Shown here in pieces: positions 19,520 through 32,742 of a DNA stretch of 54,201 bases. A program made the position numbers and the translations under genes. Source of the stretch: Actinomortierella ambigua (taxonomy: Eukaryota > Mortierellomycota > Mortierellomycetes > Mortierellales > Mortierellaceae); NCBI GenBank assembly GCA_016098155.1, contig JAAAJB010000093.1, positions 22,983 to 77,183 of the forward strand, in the 5' to 3' direction. Below the pieces are notes generated by a model. The model was not told the DNA's origin and searched no databases. It saw only the letters and a program-made list of their open reading frames with translations. Every line of letters starts with the position of its first letter. Within the stretch, counting starts at the first letter, position 1.

Positions 19520-20143
19520 CTATGGGCCAGGTGGGTAGGCTGCAGTGGTAGGCGGGTATGGGCTAGCAGGTGGGTACGCATTGGGCATAGGGGGGTACAT
19601 GCCGGGTTGCGGCGCGGGGGCGGGGCTGCCGTACTGAACTGGCGAGGGCGAGTATGTAGTCGAAGGCATGTATGGGCTGGGTGGTGGGTAGGTTGTGACA
19701 GGCGAAGGCGCAGCGTACGGCGAGGCCGCGACGGGAGCAACAGGCGAAGGGCTGTAAGGGGCGGGCGCAGGGCTCATGGGAGGATATGCTGCCGCTGGGG
19801 TCGGTGCAGGCGCTGGGGAAGGGATAGGCACAATCGTGGCACCGTTCGTCTTTTGTGGCTGGACAGGAACCGCGTTGGCGGTCGAGGCGGCCTGAGAGTT
19901 GCTCTTCTTGATCGCCGTGTAGCAGCACTTGAGGATGAGGATGAGGACAATAACACCAACAATGATACCAATGATGGCACCAGTCGAGAGACCCTCACAG
20001 TCCTCCTCTGTGCAGCTACCGCCACCACCGCCACCGCCACCACCACCGCGGCGGGCAGCCTCAGCTACGGGTGCGGCGTAAAGAGCGAAGAGGCAGGTCG
20101 AGGCGATCCAAAGGGACGAAGTGGAGAGGTGCGTTTTCATCAT
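19520..20143 (-). CDS. signal-bearing single-pass protein, Gly-rich stub and YPP-repeat tail
   Basis: 207 residues from the tandem ATG ATG at 20143; the longer open frame starts with TTG. Residues 1-29 form a signal peptide (ending PVAEA). The ectodomain is about 25 residues: ARR, ten glycines, then SCTEEDCEG. A membrane helix follows (AIIGIIVGVIVLILILKCC), then basic AIKKS, so the tail is cytosolic. The tail is Pro/Ala/Tyr-rich with repeated SPSP, PYxP and YPP motifs up to the end (AAYPPGP). It shares its layout with the other minus-strand membrane proteins of this block. It is divergently oriented to the first gene of the secreted array, with 502 bp between starts. Confidence 0.72.
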   Translation of the reverse strand: MMKTHLSTSSLWIASTCLFALYAAPVAEAARRGGGGGGGGGGSCTEEDCEGLSTGAIIGIIVGVIVLILILKCCYTAIKKSNSQAASTANAVPVQPQKTNGATIVPIPSPAPAPTPAAAYPPMSPAPAPYSPSPVAPVAASPYAAPSPVTTYPPPSPYMPSTTYSPSPVQYGSPAPAPQPGMYPPMPNAYPPASPYPPTTAAYPPGP

Positions 20144-20645
20144 CGTTGGTTCTCTTGAAGCAGCCGGTAGAAGAGACAAAAAGAAAAAGTCGGTGGAGTG
20201 GGGTGGATTGTTGGGAGAAAGTGACCGAGGTGAAGAAAAGCAAAAAAAAAAAAAAAAAAAAGAGGGGAGAGAGACGACATCAATACCTACTTGGTCATTG
20301 TGGTTAAGGTGGTGGGCATTAAAAGTGGCATGGGAAACAGGGCATCAGACGCACCGAAAAGCGTCCCATACGAAGAGCAATCTAGGAACAAGCCAGCTTC
20401 AGTTTGCAACTGAAAGAGTGGAATGTGAGACCTTTCTCACCTGTTGGCATTTGTCTTCCTTCTTCCACTTGCCTGCTCCCAGGCCATACCATCGTGTGTT
20501 GCGAACACAGATGTGGCCTTCGCTGTTATGCTATTAGTTCTCTTTATCTCGTCAACCATCGAGTCTCCTTCACAGGATTTGTACATATTTTATATTCTTC
20601 TGCCTTTCCCTTCTCTTTTTGTTCAGACCTCTACATAGACGCACC
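20144..20645. promoter_or_regulatory. divergent promoter region between membrane protein and array gene A
   Basis: 502 bp containing a long A-run (about 20242-20260) and a CT-rich stretch near the gene A start. The promoter role is inferred from the divergent starts. Confidence 0.4.
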
Positions 20646-21984
20646 ATGAAAATCATATCTCTTACCGCTTGCCTCATCCTCGTTTCAACTGCGGCGGCAA
20701 AGAATTACCAATGTAAGGTGACCATTCTATATTGCAGGGAGGACTTGAACGCGTCAACCTAAAACTCTCGCATACATTTTGTTCACACTTATATTAAACT
20801 TTTTTGATTCAGTGTTGGCAAGTCAGGAGGACGGGCAGGCGCAGCGACAGCTACCGGATCTCACGAGCGAGGTGGCGTTTCGTTCGCGGTTCTTGTCAGA
20901 TTTCGACGCGATGATCGAAGAGACGGAGGCGGTTCGCTGGAAGGGACAAAACAAGAGTATGGCGCCATCCAATGAGGACGGCGACCTTGCCGTCTGTATG
21001 TCGCGTCTCGAAGATATTAACCCATTGATGCAGTCGATCATGAGCCAGATACCAGCCAAGATCAATGTCCCAGGCATCCACGACTTGGCGCACACTTTAT
21101 TGGAGCATGTGGGCTCGGCAACGGACCTGTTGCTCCACCAGTTGGGCATAAATCTTGGTCCGATATTCGGCGTCCTCCACGCGGTTCAGGTCGCGCTCTC
21201 GGTCGTGGAGGTCGTGTTGACGGTCATCTCGTACGTGCATCCACATGTGACCCACTTCATAGGGCCAGTACACCATATCAAGGCAATAATCGACTCGATT
21301 CTTTCGTGCAATTCTGCCTCCGCGAATTCGGTTGAGCGCATCGACCAAATGATGTCCTTTGAGGTCGAAAGCTGCGCGGTTCTTGCTGATTTTTACCGCT
21401 ACACCGTCGACGCCGCCTCACTCAACTCTCCCCTGAGGAGCAGCGATGGCCACTCTGAAGATCTTACCGTCGAGCTCAAACGCGCTCTCGAGGGGGCGCA
21501 GGCCTTGGTTGAGTTGAGCAAGCTATCGATTGCTACTTCTAACGATGACTTGCTCAAGGTGCGGCCAGTCTTCACCACAAAAACCCTTAGGCTGTTTCAG
21601 CAGGAGATTGACCGAGTTTCTCAGACCGAAGCACAGAGAGAGTATGCCAATTTGTCGCTCTTCTCTATCATAGCATCTAGCAATGCCCTTGAAGCTTGCC
21701 TTCGCATTGCTGCCGACCCAGTTGGCGCTGTAGATGATTTGAATAAGGAGCAGGTTGCGGCGGACCACGAAGACAAAGGAAAAGATGATGTTAACGGCGA
21801 TCATCGCGACGAAGATGACGAGAAAGTGGGCGATGGCACTTCTGCTAAGGACGGTCTGCAGGCGAATGAGGAAAGTGAGCAACAGAATCAGAAACAAGAA
21901 CAGGCCCCACAGCAGCTGAGCCCCCAAGATCAGGCGAGCCAATCGCCACAAGTTCCTCAGGTTCAGAGCCAGCCAGAAAAGTAA
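20646..21984 (+). CDS. array gene A: divergent member of a secreted four-cysteine, Gln-tailed family
   Basis: Exons 20646-20712 and 20813-21984, phase-1 junction, 412 residues. Signal peptide MKIISLTACLILVSTAAA. It is the most diverged paralog: the usual SKDPLAAV segment after the splice is absent, but the LTSEVAFRSRFL region, four cysteines and NALEACLRIA remain. The hydrophobic core between C1 and C2 is about 103 residues, rich in Leu, Val, Ile and His. The C-terminal tail is the longest and most charged of the family (DKGKDDVNGDHRDEDDEK), followed by Gln/Pro repeats. No known domain is recognised. Secretion is supported by the signal peptide and absence of a later anchor, although the core is hydrophobic enough to consider membrane insertion. 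Confidence 0.83.
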
Positions 21985-23047
21985 GCCGGGCAGCCACGGC
22001 TCAGAGCCGCTATGAAGAGCAGAATCAGGAATGAGGAGCAAGGACAGCTTAGCCAATCTTTCATAGGGTCGACTTCACACATTTCTGAAATTCCCATCAC
22101 TAAAGGCGACATCGAAGAGCGACACAGGTCTTAAAGTTCTGTCTTTCTCAGCTTGTAGTCCGCAATTTTCACACGACCAACAACATCAGGTCCCAGTGCG
22201 GTCAGCCAAGCAGCAATGGGTGGACCATTAAAGTGGCTCCTTTCACCAAGCATTCTAGCTCTCTCTAAACTCATTATCGTTGTCGCTATCTCGAAAACTT
22301 GCCATTCATAAGAGTCTGAGAAGAGCTCGAAAGAGGTGAAAGAATGATCAAAGCACCTCTGTGTCTGAGAGAGTGCCATGTTCTGCTATTCCCCTGGCCG
22401 CCTCTTCCCTCCATTTTTTTTGTTTTTTTTTTCGCGAGCTTTTCTCCGTGCTGTTCGCGAACATTGAAATCCTCTCAGTATAGAGACCGGCTTTACTGGA
22501 TACTCTCACCACAGCCCATCTGCTATAGGTGCTTTCCGGGATTGTGATGGCTCGAAATTGCAGTGTTAGTGGCGTCAAGTAATGGTGTTTGGAGTCCCCA
22601 ATAGCATACCTAGTTAACCGATACGCCACAGCGCCTGCACCTGGAGGTTACCGTTGAGAAAAGGCACGACCTTTTCAGACATCAATACTGTTTTCAACCA
22701 AGACATCCGTACGTCACATTCGTCTAGGTGTTCTTTGTCATTGGAAAACAAGGAGCAAAGCAGGCCCCTTTTATATAATTACCAATCTCACTACCAGCAG
22801 AAGTAGATCAGGATGGAAAAGGAGCATAGCATATTATTGTTTACCTTTTCGCCAGGGACATGTTCTCGTCGCCCCTTTTTTCACTTTCCAATCTTTCTAT
22901 CTCCTATTTTCACAACCTGTAAAGGTACCTCTCATTGTTCCTTCCCACCATTTTTATCTATTTTCTCTCCTTCACACTCTTCAGCTTCCTATCTCTCCAT
23001 TATATTTGACTCCTTCCTTTAGTATATTGTGCACTCCGCCTTTCATC
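21985..23047. other. intergenic between array genes A and B
   Basis: About 1.06 kb. A minus-strand ATG frame (22379-22131, 82 residues, FEIATTIMSLERARMLGERS region) has protein-like composition but no recognised family; it could be a gene fragment. A promoter block shared with genes C and D lies at 22777-22820. Confidence 0.4.
22777..22820 (+). promoter_or_regulatory. conserved upstream block of array gene B
   Basis: The stretch ATTACCAATCTCACTACCAG followed by AGGATGGAAAA resembles blocks at similar distances upstream of genes C (24876-24915) and D (27061-27115). It lies about 230-270 bp before the ATG. It could be a shared regulatory element or simply duplicated flanking DNA. Confidence 0.35.
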
Positions 23048-24331
23048 ATGCGAGTCCTATCGATCACCTCCTGTCTTGCTTTGATCACTGTTGTCGTTGC
23101 TCAGGTGCAAGATGGTAAGAAATGAACTTCACAGAGGATGAATGGATGTATCACACAAAGGTTGATTTGAACAGGGTGTATTTATATTTTCTGGTAAAAT
23201 CTCGTCGGTGTCTGTTTGTATGTGTGTGTGCGGGGGGTGGGGTGATCATTAGGTGCCAATAATCGTCAGGCAGCGATTGGTTTAATACCCGACTATCAAT
23301 GGGGAGATGCAGACATCGAGGGACAGGATGCTTTTCGTACAGAGCTAGCAGACTCCATCAGAGAGCTCGAGTTCCGCGCGATGTTTTTGGACAGCCTGGA
23401 CGCCTCCGCTGAGGATGTGAGTAAGCTGGAGGCTGAGGAAACCTCATGCACAGTCAATTTATCACCTGCATCTGAGAGTGTCAAAAAGATCATCGACACG
23501 TTGAAAGATCCGGCCTCCAAAACAAGCGACCTCTACACACCGATCGCCAGCCAGGCCCAGACTATTGTCGATAGTTTCAATACTCCTGCTTCACTGGCGA
23601 GTCTCGGTAGCGCGCTGGTATCCCTTCAGACGTTTTCCAGACTGCTGGCCTATGCAAAGGATACCACCGCAGTTGGACCGCTTCTCTTGCAAGCGGCGAC
23701 GATTGTTCAGACGAACCTGGAGTGTCTGTCTAAAGGCAATAAGGACGCTGCCCCCGTTGATCCTGACATGGTGGTAGTAGGCAATTCACCTAGTAATGAG
23801 GCAGAGTTGTCGTTCCAGCAAGAGCGATGTTACCAAATCGCAGACCTCTACCGCAGTATGGTTGACGTCTTGGCCAAGAAGGCATCTTCTGTGTCTGAGG
23901 GGTCTTCCGATGAGATGAAGCGCTCCATGACTGGCATTCGTAATGTTCTGGATATCATGGCCAAGTCATCGATCTCAGCCAACAACGCCGACCTGCTCAA
24001 GATGCAACCGATCTTTATGGCCGACTTGCTGGGACAGTTTCGTGATGAGTATGTTCCTCTGGCTGACAAGGACGATCAGAAGCTATTTGCAGAGGCTGGT
24101 CTTTCCCTCGCCATTGGCTCCAGCAATGCTCTTGAGGCATGTCTCCGCATCGCCAAGGATCCTGTTACGGCCATTGCCGATCTGAACGAGGAACTGGAGC
24201 ATGAGGACACTGGTGAGAATGAGAATAAGGGAGCGCAGGGCCAGAACAAAGACGGTCAACAGGACCAACATGAACTGCCAGCAAAGGACCAACAAGAGCA
24301 ACAACAACAGCCGCAGCAGCAGCAGCAGTAG
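23048..24331 (+). CDS. array gene B: secreted four-cysteine, Gln-tailed protein, stop inside the tail
   Basis: Exons 23048-23114 and 23253-24331, phase-1 junction, 381 residues. Signal peptide MRVLSITSCLALITVVVAQ. After the splice comes DYQWGD, then ELADSIRELEFRAMFLD, which all paralogs share. Between C1 and C2 there are 91 variable residues, less hydrophobic than in C or D. The conserved module starts at FQQERCYQIADLYRS and includes EGSSDEMKRSM, NNADLLKMQPIF and NALEACLRIAKD, with exactly 103 residues between C3 and C4. The tail ends in Gln repeats at TAG (24329-24331). The next five codons, before a second TAG, read QPLMV, like the natural ends of C and D. Function is unknown. Confidence 0.88.
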
Positions 24332-25133
24332 CAGCCATTGATGGTGTAGGCCAAAGGGCGCTCTCGTATGAAGCTGGTTTCTGCGATATACATGGTGATG
24401 CGTCCTATCTACCTTTATGCTTCGTTCATTTCCGATTACTCCAGATCCTATTATGTGATTCAACACGAAGATCCCATCTTCCCACAATACAGACATACAG
24501 ATAGGAGTGATCGTAGTGATTGGTAAAATGAATCTGGAAAACTTCTATGCGCAATTCATATTCCAATTCAATAAGAAGGAATGGTCCCAACAGAACGCAC
24601 GGCTGGAATGCCACACAGGACGCGCGTAGAATTGCATTATCTCTGCTGACGAGAGCATAGCCTTTTCGTCCGCTAGGTTCCACATCATCTGCGGAGGTTG
24701 GTGCCACTTTCCCTGCTGGCTGCTGTTAGATAGCTACACGGTACTATCCAACCTTGGTACTCTTCCATCTATACATGAGTGGCAGGGATGCACATCAGAG
24801 TAATCTACCGTGGGTGAGGCGTGTAGACTGTATTTCTCTGTATTCGTACCTTTTGAATGTCCGCTATCTCCCCTAAATTACCAACTTTACCAGAAAGAGA
24901 GGTAGCAGGGTAAAAAAAAAAAAAAAAACCAAGGATCGCGTTGGGGCACATGGGAAAGAAGTACCTCATCCTTCACCCAAATACGTGAGGAGAGTATTCA
25001 GCTCCACGACCAGTCGTTTCTCATAAAAGACATCTCATCGTTGACGTTTTTCCCAATTTCGTCACCTCTTTATATCTTCCTTCCATCCGTTCTTCTGCTT
25101 GCTTTATTGTGGCCTGGTAAATCATACTCCATC
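24332..25133. other. intergenic between array genes B and C
   Basis: About 800 bp. It carries the shared upstream blocks of gene C: 24876-24915 (ACCAG then AGCAGGGTAAAA) and 24941-24958 (TTGGGGCACATGGGAAAG). The TATA-like TCATAAAAGAC lies at 25021-25031. No other gene is supported. Confidence 0.5.
25021..25031 (+). promoter_or_regulatory. TATA-like element of array gene C
   Basis: TCATAAAAGAC lies 113 bp before the gene C ATG. The identical 11-mer lies 115 bp before the gene D ATG (27196-27206), and a diverged form (GTTTAAGGAC) precedes gene E. Confidence 0.45.
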
Positions 25134-26308
25134 ATGAGAATCCTTTCGGTCACCGCCTGTCTCGTTTTGGTTACTGTTGTTGCCGCTCAGATCGCAGACG
25201 GTAAGAAACAAAAGGAGATGGCGCGATGAAACTAGGATGGAAATGTACAAAATATGATCCAACTTAACAGGAATGAGCATTCTTTTTGTGGGGTATATTA
25301 GGTTCCAAAGATCCTCTGGCAGCTGTAGATAGCTCCCCTGGATCTCAGTGGGTTGACTCGCCATCAGCTGGAGAGTTATCAGCTATTTCACGGCAAGAGC
25401 TATCGGATTCGATCAGCGAACTTGAGTTCCGCGCCGCTATTTTGGACATGGTGGTCCCAATACCTGATGGCGTGAGCAAATCCGAGGCATGCGATCCCAA
25501 CATGACTCCGCTTATTACTGCGCTTAGGGTCATCCTCCATTTCTTGACGTTCATCCCTGGCTTGGGGCACATTCTTTTGGGCCCAGTAGTCTTGCTTCTT
25601 AAACACACGATTGCTGTTCTCAGCGACACTGTCGTGGCGCCGGTTGTCAGAAACCTGCTGGTAGTACTGAAGCCCATCCTTTACGCAATTCTCTCCATGG
25701 CATTGTCTAAAGAGACGGCAGCTGCCATTCAGGAGGCATTGGTCCAAATTCAGAAGGTCGTTGATTGTCTCTCCACTACCATCAAAGGGGCATCCGCAGA
25801 TGTGGCAGTTATTACCTTCCAGCAGGATATTTGCTATGACTTCGCAGATCTCTACCGCAATGCAGTGAAGACGGTGGTAGATAATGTGGCATCCGTGCCT
25901 GAAGGTTCATCCGATGAGATCAAACGATCCATGGCTGGTATTCAGGCCACCCTGGATATTATGGCTACGTCGTCAATCGCATCCAATAATGCCGATCTGC
26001 TCAAGGTGCAGCCGATCTTTGCGGCTGATGTGCTTGAGCAATTCCGTGATGCATATGTCAGTCTGGCCGACAAGGATGATCAAAAGGCGTTTGCAAACAC
26101 TGGTCTCACCCTCGCCATCGGCGCAAGCAATGCTCTGGAGGCTTGTCTCCGTATTGCCAAGGATCCCGAGGCGGCTATCAACGATCTAAATGAGGATCTA
26201 GACTTCGATGAGGTCGAAAATAAGAGTTCAGTGGTGCAGAATCAAGCCCAAGGAGACTCTCAGGATCAGCAGCAGCAGCAGCAGCAACAGCAGCCGGCGA
26301 AGGTGTGA
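25134..26308 (+). CDS. array gene C: secreted four-cysteine, Gln-tailed protein with very hydrophobic core
   Basis: Exons 25134-25200 and 25302-26308, phase-1 junction, 357 residues. Signal peptide MRILSVTACLVLVTVVAAQ. The mature N-terminus reads SKDPLAAVDSS..QWVDSPS, then ELSDSISELEFRAA. C1 to C2 is 91 residues, here strongly hydrophobic (VILHFLTFIPGLGHILLGPV, then VVRNLLVVLKPILYAIL), so it could insert in or bind lipid or a hydrophobic surface; that is inference. The conserved module follows (DICYDFADLYRN, VPEGSSDEIKRSM, NNADLLKVQPIFAADVLEQF, LEACLRIAKD) and the gene ends QQQQPAKV with a short Gln run. At the DNA level its 3' module is close to that of gene D. Confidence 0.9.
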
Positions 26309-27310
26309 ATTCAAAGTACACTGTATGCGCAACGGTTATTCCATCGTTTTCATCTTCCAGCCGATACGCTTTCTCTTCCTCCTCTGTTTTGCTCCTTTTG
26401 CAGTTGTTCCAAAGCATAGTCAATGATGTATAATGAAGGCTATTTTACCTTCAAGTCTGGTCTTATTGTCTTGACCGCCATGACGGCATCTGGTAAAAGA
26501 GGATTTTTCCTCAGTGCTTTTCACTGACCGAGTGAGGAGAAAACAGAGTGGGCTAATTATCGAGGTGACCTAGAGCGTTGCTATGGCGAATTAAGACAAC
26601 CCATTGGTACTCTCTATCTTCAAACATCCGATCCCAGTAGATCGAGGAAGAGTTTCTCAAACACCATGGTAGTAATAAAACTGGTTCGGTCATATGCCTT
26701 TGCTCCATGAATTCACGGGCTCATAAAATGACTTTGAATGAATGGGAACACTAAATCAGTGACAACGATGAGTTCTTCTCTGTCATCTCGCTGTCGCTTG
26801 TCAGTTTTAGCGTTTTACCAAATAAACGGCACACCCTGGTCAACCGAACAAGTTTCCAGCTTTTTTTTTGCTATGCAGAACAATGTAGACCCTTATTGTT
26901 ACCATCTACCCTCCGTGAAGAAATCTGCGCTGTTCGTGTGCCATTTTTTTTTATTGCTTAAAGCTGCCGGTGGAGTCACACTATTGTCCTATCTCTGCTT
27001 CTCCCAAGAGGGAGGAAGGCCTAGAGACAGACGCAACAGATCTTTGGCAACCACCATCTCCTCTAAATCCCTAGCCTCACCAGAAAAGCAAGTCTCACAG
27101 GGTGGAAAAAAAAAGGGATGATAGAGTTGGGACACATTGGAAAGCAACATCCGAATCACCCCCCTTTTTTCTACACCCCTTTCTCATCTCCTTTGTCATA
27201 AAAGACTTCTTCTAGTCGAAGTTTTCTCGCCTTCAATCTTCTCACCCCTCACGCCTTCTCTTCCTCCTCCACTCGCTCTCACCTCACTTTCTGATACAAT
27301 TTTCTCCAAC
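26309..27310. other. intergenic between array genes C and D
   Basis: About 1 kb. It contains shared upstream blocks of gene D: 27061-27115 (CTCACCAG, then CACAGGGTGGAAAA), 27127-27144 (TTGGGACACATTGGAAAG) and the TATA-like TCATAAAAGAC at 27196-27206. The open frame 26738-27121 has no gene-like features. Confidence 0.5.
27127..27144 (+). promoter_or_regulatory. conserved GACACATTGG upstream element of array genes C-F
   Basis: TTGGGACACATTGGAAAG lies about 170-185 bp before the gene D ATG. Matching forms lie upstream of C (24941-24958), E (28929-28946, TTAGGACACATTAGAAGG) and F (30785-30802, GACACATTGGAGGG), at 130-235 bp. The recurring core is G-A/G-CACAT-T/G-G/A-GA. Confidence 0.45.
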
Positions 27311-28451
27311 ATGAGAATTCTTTCCATCGCTGCATGTCTCGCATTGGTTTCCATTGTCGTCGCCCAGGTTCCAGATGGTAAGGAAGAAGCGTTCCTAGGA
27401 AGCAACATGTGCGTATGTTATGTGTTATGAAGGAGTCACTCAATTTATAGGATTGGATCTAATAGGTGCCAGTGACCCTCTGGCGGCTGTCGGCAGCTCA
27501 CCTGACTATCAATGGGTCGACTCGCCATCCGTTGCGGAGCCAGCCGGCATTTCGCGTGAAGAGCTGTCGGACTCAATCAGCGAGCTCGAGTTTCGCGCTG
27601 CATTCCTGGACCTTCTGGTCCCACCAGAGGATGGGGTGATCAGGGCTGAGGCACTGGATTGCTCGGTGAACCTGAAATCAATTGTTGATACACTCAAGGG
27701 TGCCATCGATCATTTGGGGAATCTCCCTCTTCTTGGACACCTTCTTAAGCCTATAGTCACTTGTCTTGAAAATGCGCTCAGCACCCTCGCAACAGGGGTC
27801 TTGACGCCACTCCAGGGCGCCCTTCTGATTATTCTTCCGACGGTCTCCACGGTGCTTGATGTCATTGCAAGGGTGTTTTCCACTATCCCTGGGGTGGGAG
27901 ACATAATCAAGGTGGTTTTGGTCTCAATTGAAGGTGTCGTCAACTGTTTGACGACGGCCGTACGACAGGCTCCTTCGACCGGCGACAAGGTTGCTGCTTT
28001 GTCCTTCCAGCAGGATCAATGCTACCCGGTTGCAGATCTCTACCGCAACTTGGTGGACGAGATGAAAAAGAATGCAGAGTCCGTGCCTGAGGGTTCGTCG
28101 GATGAGATCAAGCGATCCATGAATGGCATCGTCGCCGTTTTGGACCTCATGGCCAAGTCGTCGATCGCAGCCAACAATGCTGATCTGCTCAAGGTGCAGC
28201 CGATCTTTGCGGCCGATGTGCTTGAGAGGTTCCGCGATGCATATGCCAGTCTGGCCGAAAAGGACGAGCAGAAGATGTTTGCCGATGCTGGCCTCACCGC
28301 CACCATTGGAGCCAGCAATGCCTTGGAGGCTTGCCTCCGTATTGCCAAGGATCCTACTGCTGCCATCGACGACTTGAATGAGGATCTAGACATCGGTGTG
28401 CCTGCAGATGTTGCTGGAGCGCCAGATAAAGCGAAAGAAGGCTCTCAGAAC

Positions 28452-28486
<35 letters not shown>

Positions 28487-28553
28487 GCCACAAGAGCAGC
28501 AGCCACAACAGCCACAACAACAACAACAGCAGCAGCAGCCGATCAAGGTGTAA
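27311..28553 (+). CDS. array gene D: secreted four-cysteine protein with longest polyGln tail
   Basis: Exons 27311-27377 and 27466-28553, phase-1 junction, 384 residues. Signal peptide MRILSIAACLALVSIVVAQ. N-terminal segment ASDPLAAVGSS..YQWVDSPS, then ELSDSISELEFRAA. C1 to C2 is 94 residues, hydrophobic and amphipathic (PLLGHLLKPIVTCLENALS, then GALLIILPTVSTVLDVIARV), with one extra cysteine. The module with C3 and C4 is nearly identical in sequence to that of C. The tail has two polyGln runs (28449-28484 and about 28516-28541) separated by Pro-Gln-Glu repeats and ends QQPIKV. No homologous domain family is known to me. The first intron sits at the same codon phase as in every paralog. Confidence 0.9.
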
Positions 28554-29072
28554 ATCCGAAGTGTGCTCTCAAGGAAGCTGATCACTCGCCAGCGATTCCA
28601 AGGTCCACGTCCTCGTGCCGATGAACCCTCTTTCTCGCCTTTGTATTGGTTGTTTCCCAGTTTCCCCAGAACTTTGTCAGCTCTACATTAGATGACAGTC
28701 TTCCTTTTTTGATTTTTCTCCTCGTTTCGAGAAACGAAAAGGGGTGGTTCTAAATACATACTTTCCAGCCTTTTCTTTTTGGCTACCAACGATGTACTTT
28801 TCAACATGTAGCTCGAATTTTAAGATTTACTCTGCAATGATTAGGGTAGGTCTCATCAATGGCTAGGAGTCTCCAAATGGCATGAGCAAGGCGTCGTCCT
28901 GCCCTTCATAGTTGGGCCTCCTATTCTGTTAGGACACATTAGAAGGGTGAACTTCACTCTTCCCCTATTTTCTTTCACTGCTCCCCTACCCCCACGTTTA
29001 AGGACGCTCTTCTCGTATCCCAAGGGCCTTCAATTTCTTTTCCTTTCACTATCTGCTTCATCGTCCTCCGTC
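28554..29072. other. intergenic between array genes D and E
   Basis: About 520 bp. The 3' flank just after the gene D stop is recognisably similar to that after gene E (CGATGAACCCTCT and TTTCCCAG stretches), showing that flanks were duplicated with the genes. The shared element of gene E is at 28929-28946. Confidence 0.5.
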
Positions 29073-30252
29073 ATGAGAATCCTTTTAATCGCCCCATGCC
29101 TACCCTTGATTTCGATCGTCGCTACCCATGCTCTAGATGGTAAGGAAGACGCTTTTCTAGGTAGAAACACGGTGTGCACTTTGATACAATGATGTGCTAC
29201 TATGAAAGGGCCATTCTATTCACAGTATTGCTTCTTCTTCTGGGGATGCTGAAGGTGCCAGTGACCCTCTGGCGGTTGTCGGCAGCTCATCTGACTATCG
29301 ATGGTTCGATTCACCATCAGCCAAAGAGTCATCTACCATTTCGCGTCAAGACCTGGCGCACTCTATCAGCGAGCTGGCGTTCCGAGCAGCATTCTTGAGC
29401 ACTGTGGTCTCATCGGTAGATGGAGTTAACAAGGCGGAGACCCCGCCTTTGGATTGTTCAACGGGTTTTCAAGCGGTCATTGACCTTCTCAAATCCGTCG
29501 CCAAGAATTTGGGTGACCTCCCTGGGGTTGAAACCGTCCTCAAAGGAGTGTTGGAGAGTCTTCAACAAGTGATCAACACTCTCGGCGGTGAGCCATCTTC
29601 GCAAGACCTTAATACCAGCTTGAATCTGCTCAAGGGTATTTCAAAGGCCCTTGGGGCGACCGAACCGGGTGTGAAGGTGATCCCTGGATTCGAAGACACC
29701 ATCAAGACGGCAGTGATCGGTATTAATAGTGTCGCTGAATGTCTGGAAAAGACCATCAAACAGACCCCTCCGATCCCAGGTAACGTGGCTGTTCTAGCCT
29801 TCCAACAGGAGTATTGCTATCCGATTGCAGACCTATACCGCAGTATGGTGAGGGCTTTGCTTGAGAATGCAGTGTACATACCTGATGGATCATCCGATGA
29901 AATGAAACGATCCATGACTGGAATTCTTGCTGTCCTGGATATCATGTCCAAGTCATCGATCGCAGCCAACAATGCCGACCTGCTCAAAGTGGAGCCGATA
30001 TTTGCAGCTGATATGTTGGAGCAGTTCCGTGATGTATATGTCAGTCTGGCCGAAAGGAATGAGCAGAAGCTGTTTGCTAATGCAGGGCTCACCGTCGCTA
30101 TCGGAGCCAGCAATGCTCTGGAGGCTTGTCTTCGTATTGCCAAGGATCCTACTGCAGCCATCGATGATCTCAAAGAGGATCTAGGTTTCGAGAACGTCTC
30201 GGACGAGGTTACAGGAGCGCCGAACCAGACAACAGACTCACAGAGTCAGTAA
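29073..30252 (+). CDS. array gene E: secreted four-cysteine protein, polyGln tail cut off by a stop
   Basis: Exons 29073-29139 and 29255-30252, phase-1 junction, 354 residues. Signal peptide MRILLIAPCLPLISIVATHA. The acceptor is CTGAAG instead of the TAG used by most paralogs. N-terminal ASDPLAVVGSS then DLAHSISELAFRAA. C1 to C2 is 94 residues, amphipathic rather than hydrophobic (FQAVIDLLKSVAKNLG, TSLNLLKGISKALG). The conserved module is complete (EYCYPIADLYRS, NNADLLKVEPIFAADMLEQF, LEACLRIAKD). The frame stops at TAA (30250-30252) after SQSQ, yet seven CAA codons follow directly in the same frame, then Lys/Gln codons and a stop at about 30340. A single C-to-T change in a Gln codon would explain the loss of the tail. 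Confidence 0.87.
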
Positions 30253-30654
30253 CAACAACAACAACAACAACAAAAGCAGCAGAAGCAGAAGACAACGCCA
30301 GCTACTGTGAGTGTGGCCTCGAGGTGCGCTCTCATGTGAGTGGCTCATCCACCGGTTATCCCAGGTTGCACATCTTCGTCGATGAACCCTCTCCTCGGCT
30401 CCTATGTGTTCGTTTCCCAGGTTCTTCAGATCTCAGTCAGCAATGCTTAGCATGGGATATCTTCCTGCCTCTTCTTCTCGTTTGTGCACCATGGTAATGG
30501 TCAAAGGAGTGTCAATCCTTGGAGCTCCATGGCTGAATATCGACAAGAGTCAGAGGTCCTCATAATAAAATCTCGCTCATTTATTTTATATTTGGAGGGG
30601 GAAGAGAACCAAGTAATCAAAAGCACGCTGTTTAGTGTGTTGCTCAGGGTATGG

Positions 30655-30746
30655 TATCCAGGAAGGGATGGCCAGAGCAAGACACCCAGTAGCCGGGATG
30701 TATCCAGGAAGGATTGGCCAGAGCAAGACACCCAGTAGCCGGGATG
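30655..30746. repeat. 46-bp tandem duplication
   Basis: Two copies (30655-30700 and 30701-30746) beginning TATCCAGGAAGG and ending GTAGCCGGGATG. They differ only where one has GGGATGG and the other GGATTGG. The near identity indicates a recent duplication. Confidence 0.9.
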
Positions 30747-30908
30747 TGCAATCTTACTGGAAAGGCAATATACTGCTCTTTCATTTTTGACACATTGGAG
30801 GGGAGGAGGTGGGCGCAAGGGAGTACCGAATTACCGTCCTTATTTTTCTGTCACATCCTCCCGTTTGTCGTTTACGATCTTCGCCTGGTGGTGGTTTCCT
30901 ATCCTTTG

Positions 30909-30955
30909 CTCTCTTCACTCTCTTCACTCTCTTCACTCTCTTCACTCTCTTCACA
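30909..30955. repeat. CT-rich 9-nt minisatellite upstream of array gene F
   Basis: About five copies of TCTTCACTC lie roughly 60-110 bp before the gene F ATG, in the place where the paralogs have a plain CT-rich leader. Confidence 0.85.
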
Positions 30956-31016
30956 CCTCACCTCTTCTTTCCTCCCTCCATTCTTCTCATCTCTTTCTGA
31001 TACACCATACTCCACC

Positions 31017-32241
31017 ATGAAAGTCCTTTTGATTGCTACATGTCTCGCTTTGGCATCCATTTTTGTCACTGATGGTAAGGAAGAGGCAATTCTGGGAGGC
31101 AACATGATGTGTTCATTGCGACAAAAGTGGAGTTATGAAAGGATCATTTACGGGATTGCGACTTCTTCTGGGGTATGCTAGGTGCCAGTGTCCCTCTGGC
31201 AGCTGTCGGCAGTGCGCCCGAGTCCGCTAATTCGCGTGAAGAGCTGTCGCACTCGATCAGCGAACTCGCGTCCCGAGCTGCGTATTTGAACAGTGCGATC
31301 CCATCAGCGATTGATGTGAGCAAGGCTGGTACACCAGCTGAAGATTGCTCGGTCAGCGTGCAACCAGCCATCGATGCACTCAAATCCATCCAAGAGAAGC
31401 TGAAGAGCATCGCTGCAGAAGGGTCTCCCACTGTCGAGCTGGCGATCCAAGCGATAGAATTAGTAATCACCAGTCTCAAAAGCACCAAAGATATTGCCCT
31501 GGATGCCCTAATCAAAACTTTGAGCGTGCTCGGGGGCGTTTTAGAGGAACTTGGTTATGATTCGGGGGAGGCCTATCGTGGCGTTGCTGAATGTCTGAGA
31601 AAGTTCGCCCAAAAGGATCCTGCGAATCCTGGCACCAAGAATGCTCTGGCCTCCCCACAGAAGATGTAAGAGGACAGGACATCCTCTACGCTCTACCGAC
31701 CAAGTGTTCGTGTCTCGACCTGCCAATAACTCCTATGGATGTTCCAGATGGCTTTCTTCATTGTAGTCTGATGGCCGTCGTGATAAGACGCCGTATCATA
31801 CTTTTTATTTCTGTGATTATCATTTTTATACAAATACGCTGTTCCAAGATAGCTTGTTCCACATCTTTTGATCAATACATTTTCACTCCCTATATATCTG
31901 TCCCCTTGTCTCTATCTACATAATAGGGGAGTTACTACCTGATTGCAGACCTCTACCGCAGCACAGTAGATGCGGCGATTATGAATGCAGCGTCCGTGCC
32001 TGAGGGTTCGTGCGATGAGATCAAGCGATCAATGACTGGTATCCTCGCCGTCCTGGACATCACGTCCGAGTCGTCGATCGCAGCCAACAATGCCGACCTG
32101 CTCAAAGTGGAGCCGATATTTGCAGCTGATATGTTGGAGCAGTTCCGTGATGTATATGTCAGTTTAGCCGACAAGGACGAGCAGGAGCTGTTTGCTGCTG
32201 CCGGGCTCAGCCTTACCATCGGAGCCAGCAATACCTTGTGA
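31017..32241 (+). CDS. array gene F: truncated, probably decaying paralog with an extra intron
   Basis: Model: exons 31017-31074, 31182-31665 and 31932-32241, 283 residues in one frame. The signal peptide is three codons shorter (MKVLLIATCLALASIFVTDG). N-terminal ASVPLAAVGSA and ELSHSISELASRAA are family-like, and C1-C2 is only 81 residues. A second intron, absent from the other members, starts at GTAAGA exactly where the others read FQQ. Using the second of two close AGs (GGGGAG) restores a colinear IYYLIADLYRS; using the first (AATAG) causes a quick stop. C3 is replaced by Tyr. After IGASNTL the frame stops because about 70 bp coding the C4 helix are missing, so C4 and the Gln tail are lost. 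It may be a pseudogene. Confidence 0.65.
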
Positions 32242-32742
32242 GAATGTTGAGGAAGACGTTGCAGGAGCGCCGGACCAGGCAAATGAAGAAGGCTCTCAGG
32301 GTCCGCAAGACCCACCAACTCAGGCGCAACAGCAGCAACCGTTGAATTTGTACATAATCAGAAAATAGCAGTAGGTCTCAAATAGCTGTCCTCTAGCTCA
32401 TCCCAGAATCCAGAATGTCGCCCCACTTCCTCCCTGTTTTGGCTTAGGAAAAATCCACGTGTGAGCGCAGCAAACTTCCAATGGGGGAGGGACGTTTGCT
32501 GAGGGTTCCTATCAGCATACTGGCTAGAGAAGGAACAAGGTTACAGTGTTGAAGATATGGATCATGAGATCGATGACACGAGGCAGCAGATCGACTCGAC
32601 CCACTAAAGCAGAGGTTCAAGGTTTCAGGGCGAATCTGTCGCGACTGCGAGCCCAGGCTACCGTTGCTTCTCGAGTCTTCATGCTTGTCATAACGGCGGG
32701 AAGCTTCGAGCTCAACACCGGCGACGTGCGATCATTGCCGTA
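32242..32742. other. 3' remnant of array gene F and flank
   Basis: Just after the F stop, out-of-frame sequence still resembles the family tail (GCAGGAGCGCCGGACCAGGC, then a short CAA/CAG run near 32330-32341). The rest to 32742 has no recognisable gene, although it may be a decayed upstream part of the zinc-ribbon fragment. Confidence 0.5.

Follow-up and report, generated by a model that had tools for sequence, protein, structure and literature searches.

What kind of protein is encoded by tandem genes whose C-terminal parts are plainly alike and whose central domains are nearly unrelated, and what would drive the central domain to change? The question is raised by a six-gene array on the plus strand of a 54,201-nucleotide stretch of DNA from Actinomortierella ambigua (Mortierellaceae; assembly GCA_016098155.1, contig JAAAJB010000093.1, positions 22,983 to 77,183), called here the window; the array region lies on contig C840 of an assembly of 33.8 Mb in 846 contigs. 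An initial annotation, made from the letters of the DNA, described six paralogs with a signal-peptide exon, four cysteines (C1 to C4) shared by A-E, a hypervariable core between C1 and C2, a constant C3-C4 module and a Gln-rich tail, and proposed that the core is under diversifying pressure. Sequence comparison and structure prediction suggest that the array encodes soluble, probably secreted, two-domain all-helical recognition or binding proteins with a diversifying core, a reading to which we give an even chance.

The tandem array is real, and five of its genes have the layout first described. Genes A (20646-21984; exon 1 20646-20712, exon 2 20813-21984; 412 aa), B (23048-24331; 23048-23114 and 23253-24331; 381 aa), C (25134-26308; 25134-25200 and 25302-26308; 357 aa), D (27311-28553; 27311-27377 and 27466-28553; 384 aa) and E (29073-30252; 29073-29139 and 29255-30252; 354 aa) are followed by F, with intergenic gaps of 519-1063 bp across the array. 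Exon 1 measures 67 nt in each of A-E and 58 nt in F, GTAAG comes next in every gene, and the intron is in phase 1; a further full-length paralogue on contig C632 also has a first exon of 67 nt by hand count. A. ambigua protein records DFQ27_009745 (P0004) and DFQ27_009746 (P0001) are identical to A and B. Exon 1 codes for a typical hydrophobic leader, as judged by eye, and two relatives, P0008 and P0009, carry the name 'Secreted protein' in their source; the array products are probably secreted. After a short N segment that carries an ISELEFRA-type motif, core and module lie at 20995-21309 and 21373-21699 in A, 23447-23725 and 23828-24142 in B, 25490-25768 and 25832-26146 in C, 27660-27947 and 28020-28334 in D, and 29455-29742 and 29815-30129 in E. 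The four cysteines are common to spliced A-E, aside from Cys9 of the signal peptide (D has one additional core Cys, residue 122). As counted before, the C3-C4 gap is 103 residues in B, C, D and E (107 in A), and the C1-C2 gaps are 103, 91, 91, 94 and 94 in A-E and 81 in F. F does not stand as an equal sixth member, since its first open frame stops after the core.

The difference between core and module holds in a proper alignment. The cores of B-E are 20-29% identical (z 1.5-9.8 over shuffles) and nearly unrelated, as the initial annotation had said, whereas their modules are 69-76% identical as protein (z 32-44); A is the array member with the greatest divergence. Core hydropathy separates very hydrophobic C and D (1.11, the highest, and 1.06) from the lower E and B (0.25 and 0.21), with A at 0.70. 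Across the 62 of 70 aligned family members that keep all four cysteines (the other eight being omitted), 1870 of 1891 pairs are less identical in the core than in the module, and where module identity is 80-90% (49 pairs) the median core identity is 47%; conservation differs between the two, the core being the more variable. Between D and E and their DFQ26 orthologues (P0002 and P0003), 10 of 188 core residues have changed (3 in D, 7 in E) against 1 of 206 in the module (0 and 1; Fisher p = 0.004); differences elsewhere number 0 and 1 in the N segment, 0 and 2 in the C2-C3 linker, and 2 and 1 after C4, with the start of P0003, modelled differently, excluded. Nonsynonymous (dN) and synonymous (dS) divergence, estimated by NG86, likewise gave the higher dN/dS for the core: for C/D, C/E and D/E, cores have dN 0.75-1.03, dS 1.07-1.15 and dN/dS about 0.7-0.9, and modules dN 0.16-0.18, dS 0.65-0.80 and dN/dS about 0.2-0.3, core dS being saturated or not computable for every pair with A or B.

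Diversifying pressure as such can be read in only one closely related DNA pair, formed by F and a copy on another contig, and there the proposal stood. Gene F (31017-31669, plus strand; exon 1 31017-31074, exon 2 31182-31669, stop 31667-31669) is a core-only frame with C1 at 31346 and C2 at 31592. Its core is joined to a module remnant (31932-32241), in which C3 has become Tyr and the frame stops before C4, by a possible intron (GTAAGA...AG) or insert at 31666-31931. Short copies resembling F are present on contigs C770 and C598, one on each, and the possible intron is partly common to both (C598, 92%, query 31609-31894; C770, 89%, 31602-31774). Between F and the C598 copy, identity is 53-64% over codon columns 109-144, 86-100% in the other bins and 94-95% past the block; the block (36 codons) has dN 0.81 and dS 0.19, and the flanking segments dN 0.05-0.08 and dS 0.06-0.08. 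In a permutation scan, which allows for the post-hoc choice of block, the best divergent segment reached a log-likelihood ratio of 33.9, whereas none of 200 permutations exceeded 6.3, and comprised about 114 sites with 41% mismatch inside and 7% outside. In a nucleotide-only alignment, two of three gap settings (with 3-nt indels) leave codon positions 1, 2 and 3 of the block identical at 22/37, 20/37 and 29/37, and the third setting, with two extra 1-nt gaps, at 23/37, 20/36 and 30/37; before the block the counts are 58/64, 61/64 and 61/64. Compared with the 3' flank, positions 1-2 of the block differ strongly (p = 2.5e-7), whereas position 3 shows no clear difference (p = 0.09), and within the block position 3 departs from positions 1-2 (p = 0.035 in the nucleotide-only alignment, 0.004 in the codon alignment). 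Because position 3 is largely kept while positions 1-2 are scrambled, diversifying selection on amino acids fits this block of this pair, and relaxation cannot give the pattern.

The core of the C770 copy gives a different picture. Relative to F, its intron is identical at 101 of 107 sites (94%), its 3' flank at 98 of 112, its signal exon at 95% and its N segment at 85%, whereas its core is identical at 146 of 230 (63.5%, with shuffles at 60%; core versus intron p = 1.5e-10). The 3' flank is 87-92% identical among all three short copies, and the core DNA 67% identical between C770 and C598 and 80% between F and C598. Over codon columns 37-72, F/C770 has dN 0.40 and dS 0.16. Pure relaxation was rejected for this pair, the core being more diverged than intron and flank. 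One helical domain varying beyond adjacent non-coding DNA in one set of copies is what would be expected if it were pushed to change by something it meets.

An alternative that these copies bring up directly is that cores change by replacement of segments, through recombination with allelic donors or a pool of divergent cores. The sharp F/C598 drop within one block, with its mismatch of 41% against 7% and its log-likelihood ratio of 33.9, speaks for such replacement, and third positions of F/C770 are diverged as well over columns 73-144. An unrelated segment would not, however, keep 29 of 37 third positions as the F/C598 block does, and neither a donor in the assembly nor tandem repeats in any core were found. 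Segment replacement, which would resemble the editing proposed for a nematode family discussed below and is compatible with a recognition function, is considered unlikely.

At the structural scale, the models that the initial annotation had called for gave two helical domains, core and module. AlphaFold 2 models of the mature proteins reached a predicted local distance difference test score (pLDDT) of 82.8 and a predicted template modelling score (pTM) of 0.81 for E, and 81.0 and 0.78 for C; core and module are predicted as separate domains of about four main helices each, and C and E have a similar predicted helix layout although their cores are 22% identical. The core can be regarded as a natural library of diverse sequences predicted to share one helical layout. 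Foldseek returned no Protein Data Bank (PDB) match at E 0.001, and the fold libraries gave no significant match, where absence of a family excludes nothing. An internal duplication, considered from the similar length and helix number of core and module, was set aside when HHalign of the two profiles found no match (probability 0.1, E 0.58). Each domain would be closed by one disulfide, C1-C2 and C3-C4, with mixed support from sequences that lack some of the cysteines. P0005 (isolate BGZ73), with GPCC at positions C1 to C4, has lost both C1 and C2 and kept C3 and C4, which fits C1-C2 pairing; the other seven (P0027, CCCR; P0030 and P0052, -CCC; P0040 and P0066, YCCC; P0047, C--C; P0063, CC-C) do not fit this pairing unless misaligned or mis-predicted. 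The structure alignment held 64 of the 70 sequences, P0012, P0032, P0043, P0052, P0063 and P0064 being left out by choice.

Helical cores would also suit surface-active or lipid-binding proteins of the hydrophobin or HsbA kind, in which the core sequence would drift while length and helicity are kept. The very hydrophobic cores of C and D, the helical prediction for both modelled cores and the C1-C2 gap of 89-105 residues in 60 of the 62 four-cysteine sequences are in line with this. On the other side, core hydropathy spans 0.21-1.11 among paralogues, the window exons have no Pfam match to such families, and drift cannot exceed the neutral rate, whereas in F/C770 the divergence of the core far surpasses that of intron and flank. 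A surface or lipid function of this sort has, in our judgement, a small chance of being the correct explanation.

The constancy of the ends needs separate consideration, because it may be part selection and part homogenisation, as suggested by an exact tract shared by E and F and by the grouping of modules by isolate. The tract, 90 bp long, lies at 29956-30045 (plus strand) in E and 32074-32163 in F, in modules that are 82% identical overall (253/307), and is likely a product of gene conversion. The core of B is 53% identical to that of P0006 (isolate BGZ73) and at most 25% to six others compared, whereas its module is no nearer to P0006 (68%) than to C, D and E (69-71%); in this comparison the core of P0005, without C1 and C2, was delimited by hand-set positions. 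The module tree (46 rows: 45 of the 70 sequences, those named and with module length 90-125, and the C632 paralogue) groups genes by isolate, joining the three BGZ73 genes (91/60) and B-E (99/94), with several supports moderate. Gene conversion may therefore add to the constancy of the array ends. Carried further, the same three observations favour the view that the whole pattern is mostly bookkeeping, with ends homogenised by gene conversion around a core that is weakly constrained and old. The one-to-one orthologues between isolates, with 10 core changes against 1 in the module, speak against it, as do the module dS of 0.65-1.10 among B-E, not far below the core dS of C, D and E, and the core-only copies, whose introns and flanks are conserved and whose cores are less so; we hold this view to be improbable, somewhat more so than either of the two alternatives above. 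Weakest, and very unlikely, is a secreted helical toxin or antimicrobial that would insert hydrophobic helices into competitor membranes and diversify against resistance, for which speak the hydrophobic cores of C and D and the VIA-align rows of both models, which include the alpha-pore-forming or related bacterial proteins ClyA, Ahl, Smh, Mak, Nhe and Hbl.

These alternatives overlap in part with the recognition reading, which ranks first at about even chances. Under the recognition reading, the module, kept constant, would serve in folding, assembly or docking of the protein, and the core would contact a changing external partner, such as a microbe, an adjacent hypha or the surface of a host, and be driven by that contact to change its amino acids. 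Copies would arise by tandem duplication, modules would be partly homogenised through gene conversion, and the core-only copies suggest that the core may be able to stand alone. Several points weigh against the reading. The case for faster-than-neutral change through selection depends on a single short block, chosen post hoc, in one core-only pair. Core dN/dS by NG86 is below 1 among A-E wherever it is computable. In F/C770, third positions of columns 73-144 are 38% identical, diverged like the others (dS 1.9); part of this may come from older divergence, from misalignment or from segment replacement. The donor search in the assembly found no source for the divergent cores: the second half of the C598 core matches only itself, and in the C770 core, matches to F and C598 do not extend beyond the first 52 bp. 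In 21 of the 1891 pairs, including P0013/P0036, P0053/P0055 and P0008/P0009, core identity equals or exceeds module identity, and a fast core is therefore not universal in the family. Finally, the agreement of the C and E models is not independent, because nearly the same alignment was used for both.

The suggestion of an undescribed family agrees with the searches made. Against Pfam-A, which we take to include HsbA, hydrophobin, CFEM and cerato-platanin models, the six window exons gave best E values of 0.02-0.54, every match falling short of its family cut-off. Among the 70 members, in a listing at E up to 0.01 that gives no cut-offs, four families (Rpc31, GP24_25, pAdhesive_17, DUF7162) matched 1-2 members each, with best E 0.0009-0.0083. 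A PDB sequence search with the family profile gave 18 weak matches (E 0.007-2.6), among them designed bundles and viral proteins; these were read as helical or low-complexity composition. No description of the family was found in the open-licence literature, judging by titles and abstract starts at the top of the results. Protein homology searches, each scoring about 8000 candidates, gave 13, 66 and 19 matches (gene C was not among the matches of the first, in which low-complexity tails may have consumed words). Metagenome-source matches are nameless, and all organism-named ones are from Mortierellaceae: Actinomortierella and, by a placement we assume, Linnemannia, Mortierella, Podila, Haplosporangium, Modicella, Gamsiella, Dissophora and Entomortierella. 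Consecutive locus tags in several species (e.g. BG015_006702/703, BGZ47_004442/443, BGZ73_004852-854) suggest that neighbouring copies are common. All four cysteines are kept in 62 of the 70 aligned sequences, with C1-C2 gaps of 66-105 (the two outside 89-105 being 66 and 68) and C3-C4 gaps of 92-150, 53 of 62 within 102-107. The conserved C3-C4 module could serve as a marker for finding further family members.

The Gln tail, described as part of the layout, is found in B, C and D and is not a family trait. Among the 57 sequences (of 70) whose tails have 12 or more residues, at least 25% Gln occurs in 5 of 10 from A. ambigua and in 0 of 47 others, so that the Gln tail is confined to this species; A has 20% and E 14%, and the tails outside A. 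ambigua are mostly acidic (median D+E 0.57). The tails of B, C and D are coded by AGC/CAG-type repeats, D having the longest CAG/CAA-coded tail in the array. The stop of E lies directly 5' of a CAA/AAC run (window 30250-30273), and the DFQ26 protein P0003 has the same terminal residues; E is almost without a Gln tail because its frame stops immediately before the run. P0012 (Linnemannia zychae, 562 aa) has a long AESQAEATP-type repeat tail beyond its module.

On C598 (L028:2-1089), splicing of a putative intron (donor 388, exon at 624) would link the F-like core-only frame in phase to the C-terminal portion of a protein kinase (Pfam PF00069, profile 66-206 of 263), whose N-terminal part is missing; F reads in phase at the matching position into its own module remnant. 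The C598 reading looks like intron-mediated exon shuffling, with the reservation that C598 starts at a contig edge and the spliced reading enters half a kinase. A frame adjoining the copy on C770 (L027:804-1292) resembles the end of what we take to be a PIF1/Helitron-type helicase, with no Pfam match; a transposon may therefore have carried this copy. It is a doubtful extension that the genome holds a repertoire of secreted recognition modules, with an above-neutral helical domain in a constant frame and dispersed core-only forms, one of them read into a kinase half, amounting to incipient self/non-self or microbe recognition in Mortierellaceae. Near the array itself, a 46-bp unit stands in two tandem copies between E and F (window 30654-30747, 95% matches), and an adjoining frame on the minus strand (19520-20344) is Gly-rich, contains a single hydrophobic span and has a long tail rich in Pro, without a Pfam match. 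Six of ten neighbouring frames match Pfam (Atg22-like, F-box, prenylcysteine lyase, Exo_endo_phos, LRR, Serinc); these six look ordinary and give no clue to function.

How does this family compare with known systems? HsbA-type hydrophobic surface binding proteins are fungal, secreted and helical; the present family has no profile match to them, two domains, four conserved cysteines and a hypervariable core. Hydrophobins and CFEM proteins have eight conserved cysteines, whereas four are family-wide here, with about 90-105 residues between C1 and C2 and between C3 and C4. Candidate effectors from plant pathogens combine a signal peptide with rapid divergence, and the signal-peptide-like leader and fast divergence are a likeness to them. 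Such candidates under diversifying selection are reported, for example, from barley powdery mildew (PMC3582587). The homology searches gave no sequence relation to them, and here the family is one of Mortierellaceae and one domain is nearly constant. Closest in layout are the HYP effectors of cyst nematodes, described as secreted proteins without a Pfam domain, with a hypervariable domain of rearranged motifs in one exon between conserved ends that are about 95% identical; HYP1 and HYP3 each occupy a single-gene locus at which alleles are very numerous, and editing of HYP genes has been proposed (PMC11228951). Probable secretion, lack of a Pfam domain, a variable domain within one exon and conserved coding ends are shared. 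Here, by contrast, the variants are paralogues and not alleles, the organism is a fungus and not a nematode, and the ends are less alike (B-E modules 69-76% as protein; F/C770 signal exon 95% and N segment 85% as DNA). Recurring motifs likewise differ: a search of 20600-32400 for tandem repeats, dispersed motifs not being searched, placed them only in the Gln tails, the CAA run after E and intergenic DNA. Parasites are the main known source of secreted families that set a hypervariable domain in a constant frame, and such a family in soil fungi, whose relatives are found in many Mortierellaceae, raises the question of what these fungi recognise or evade.

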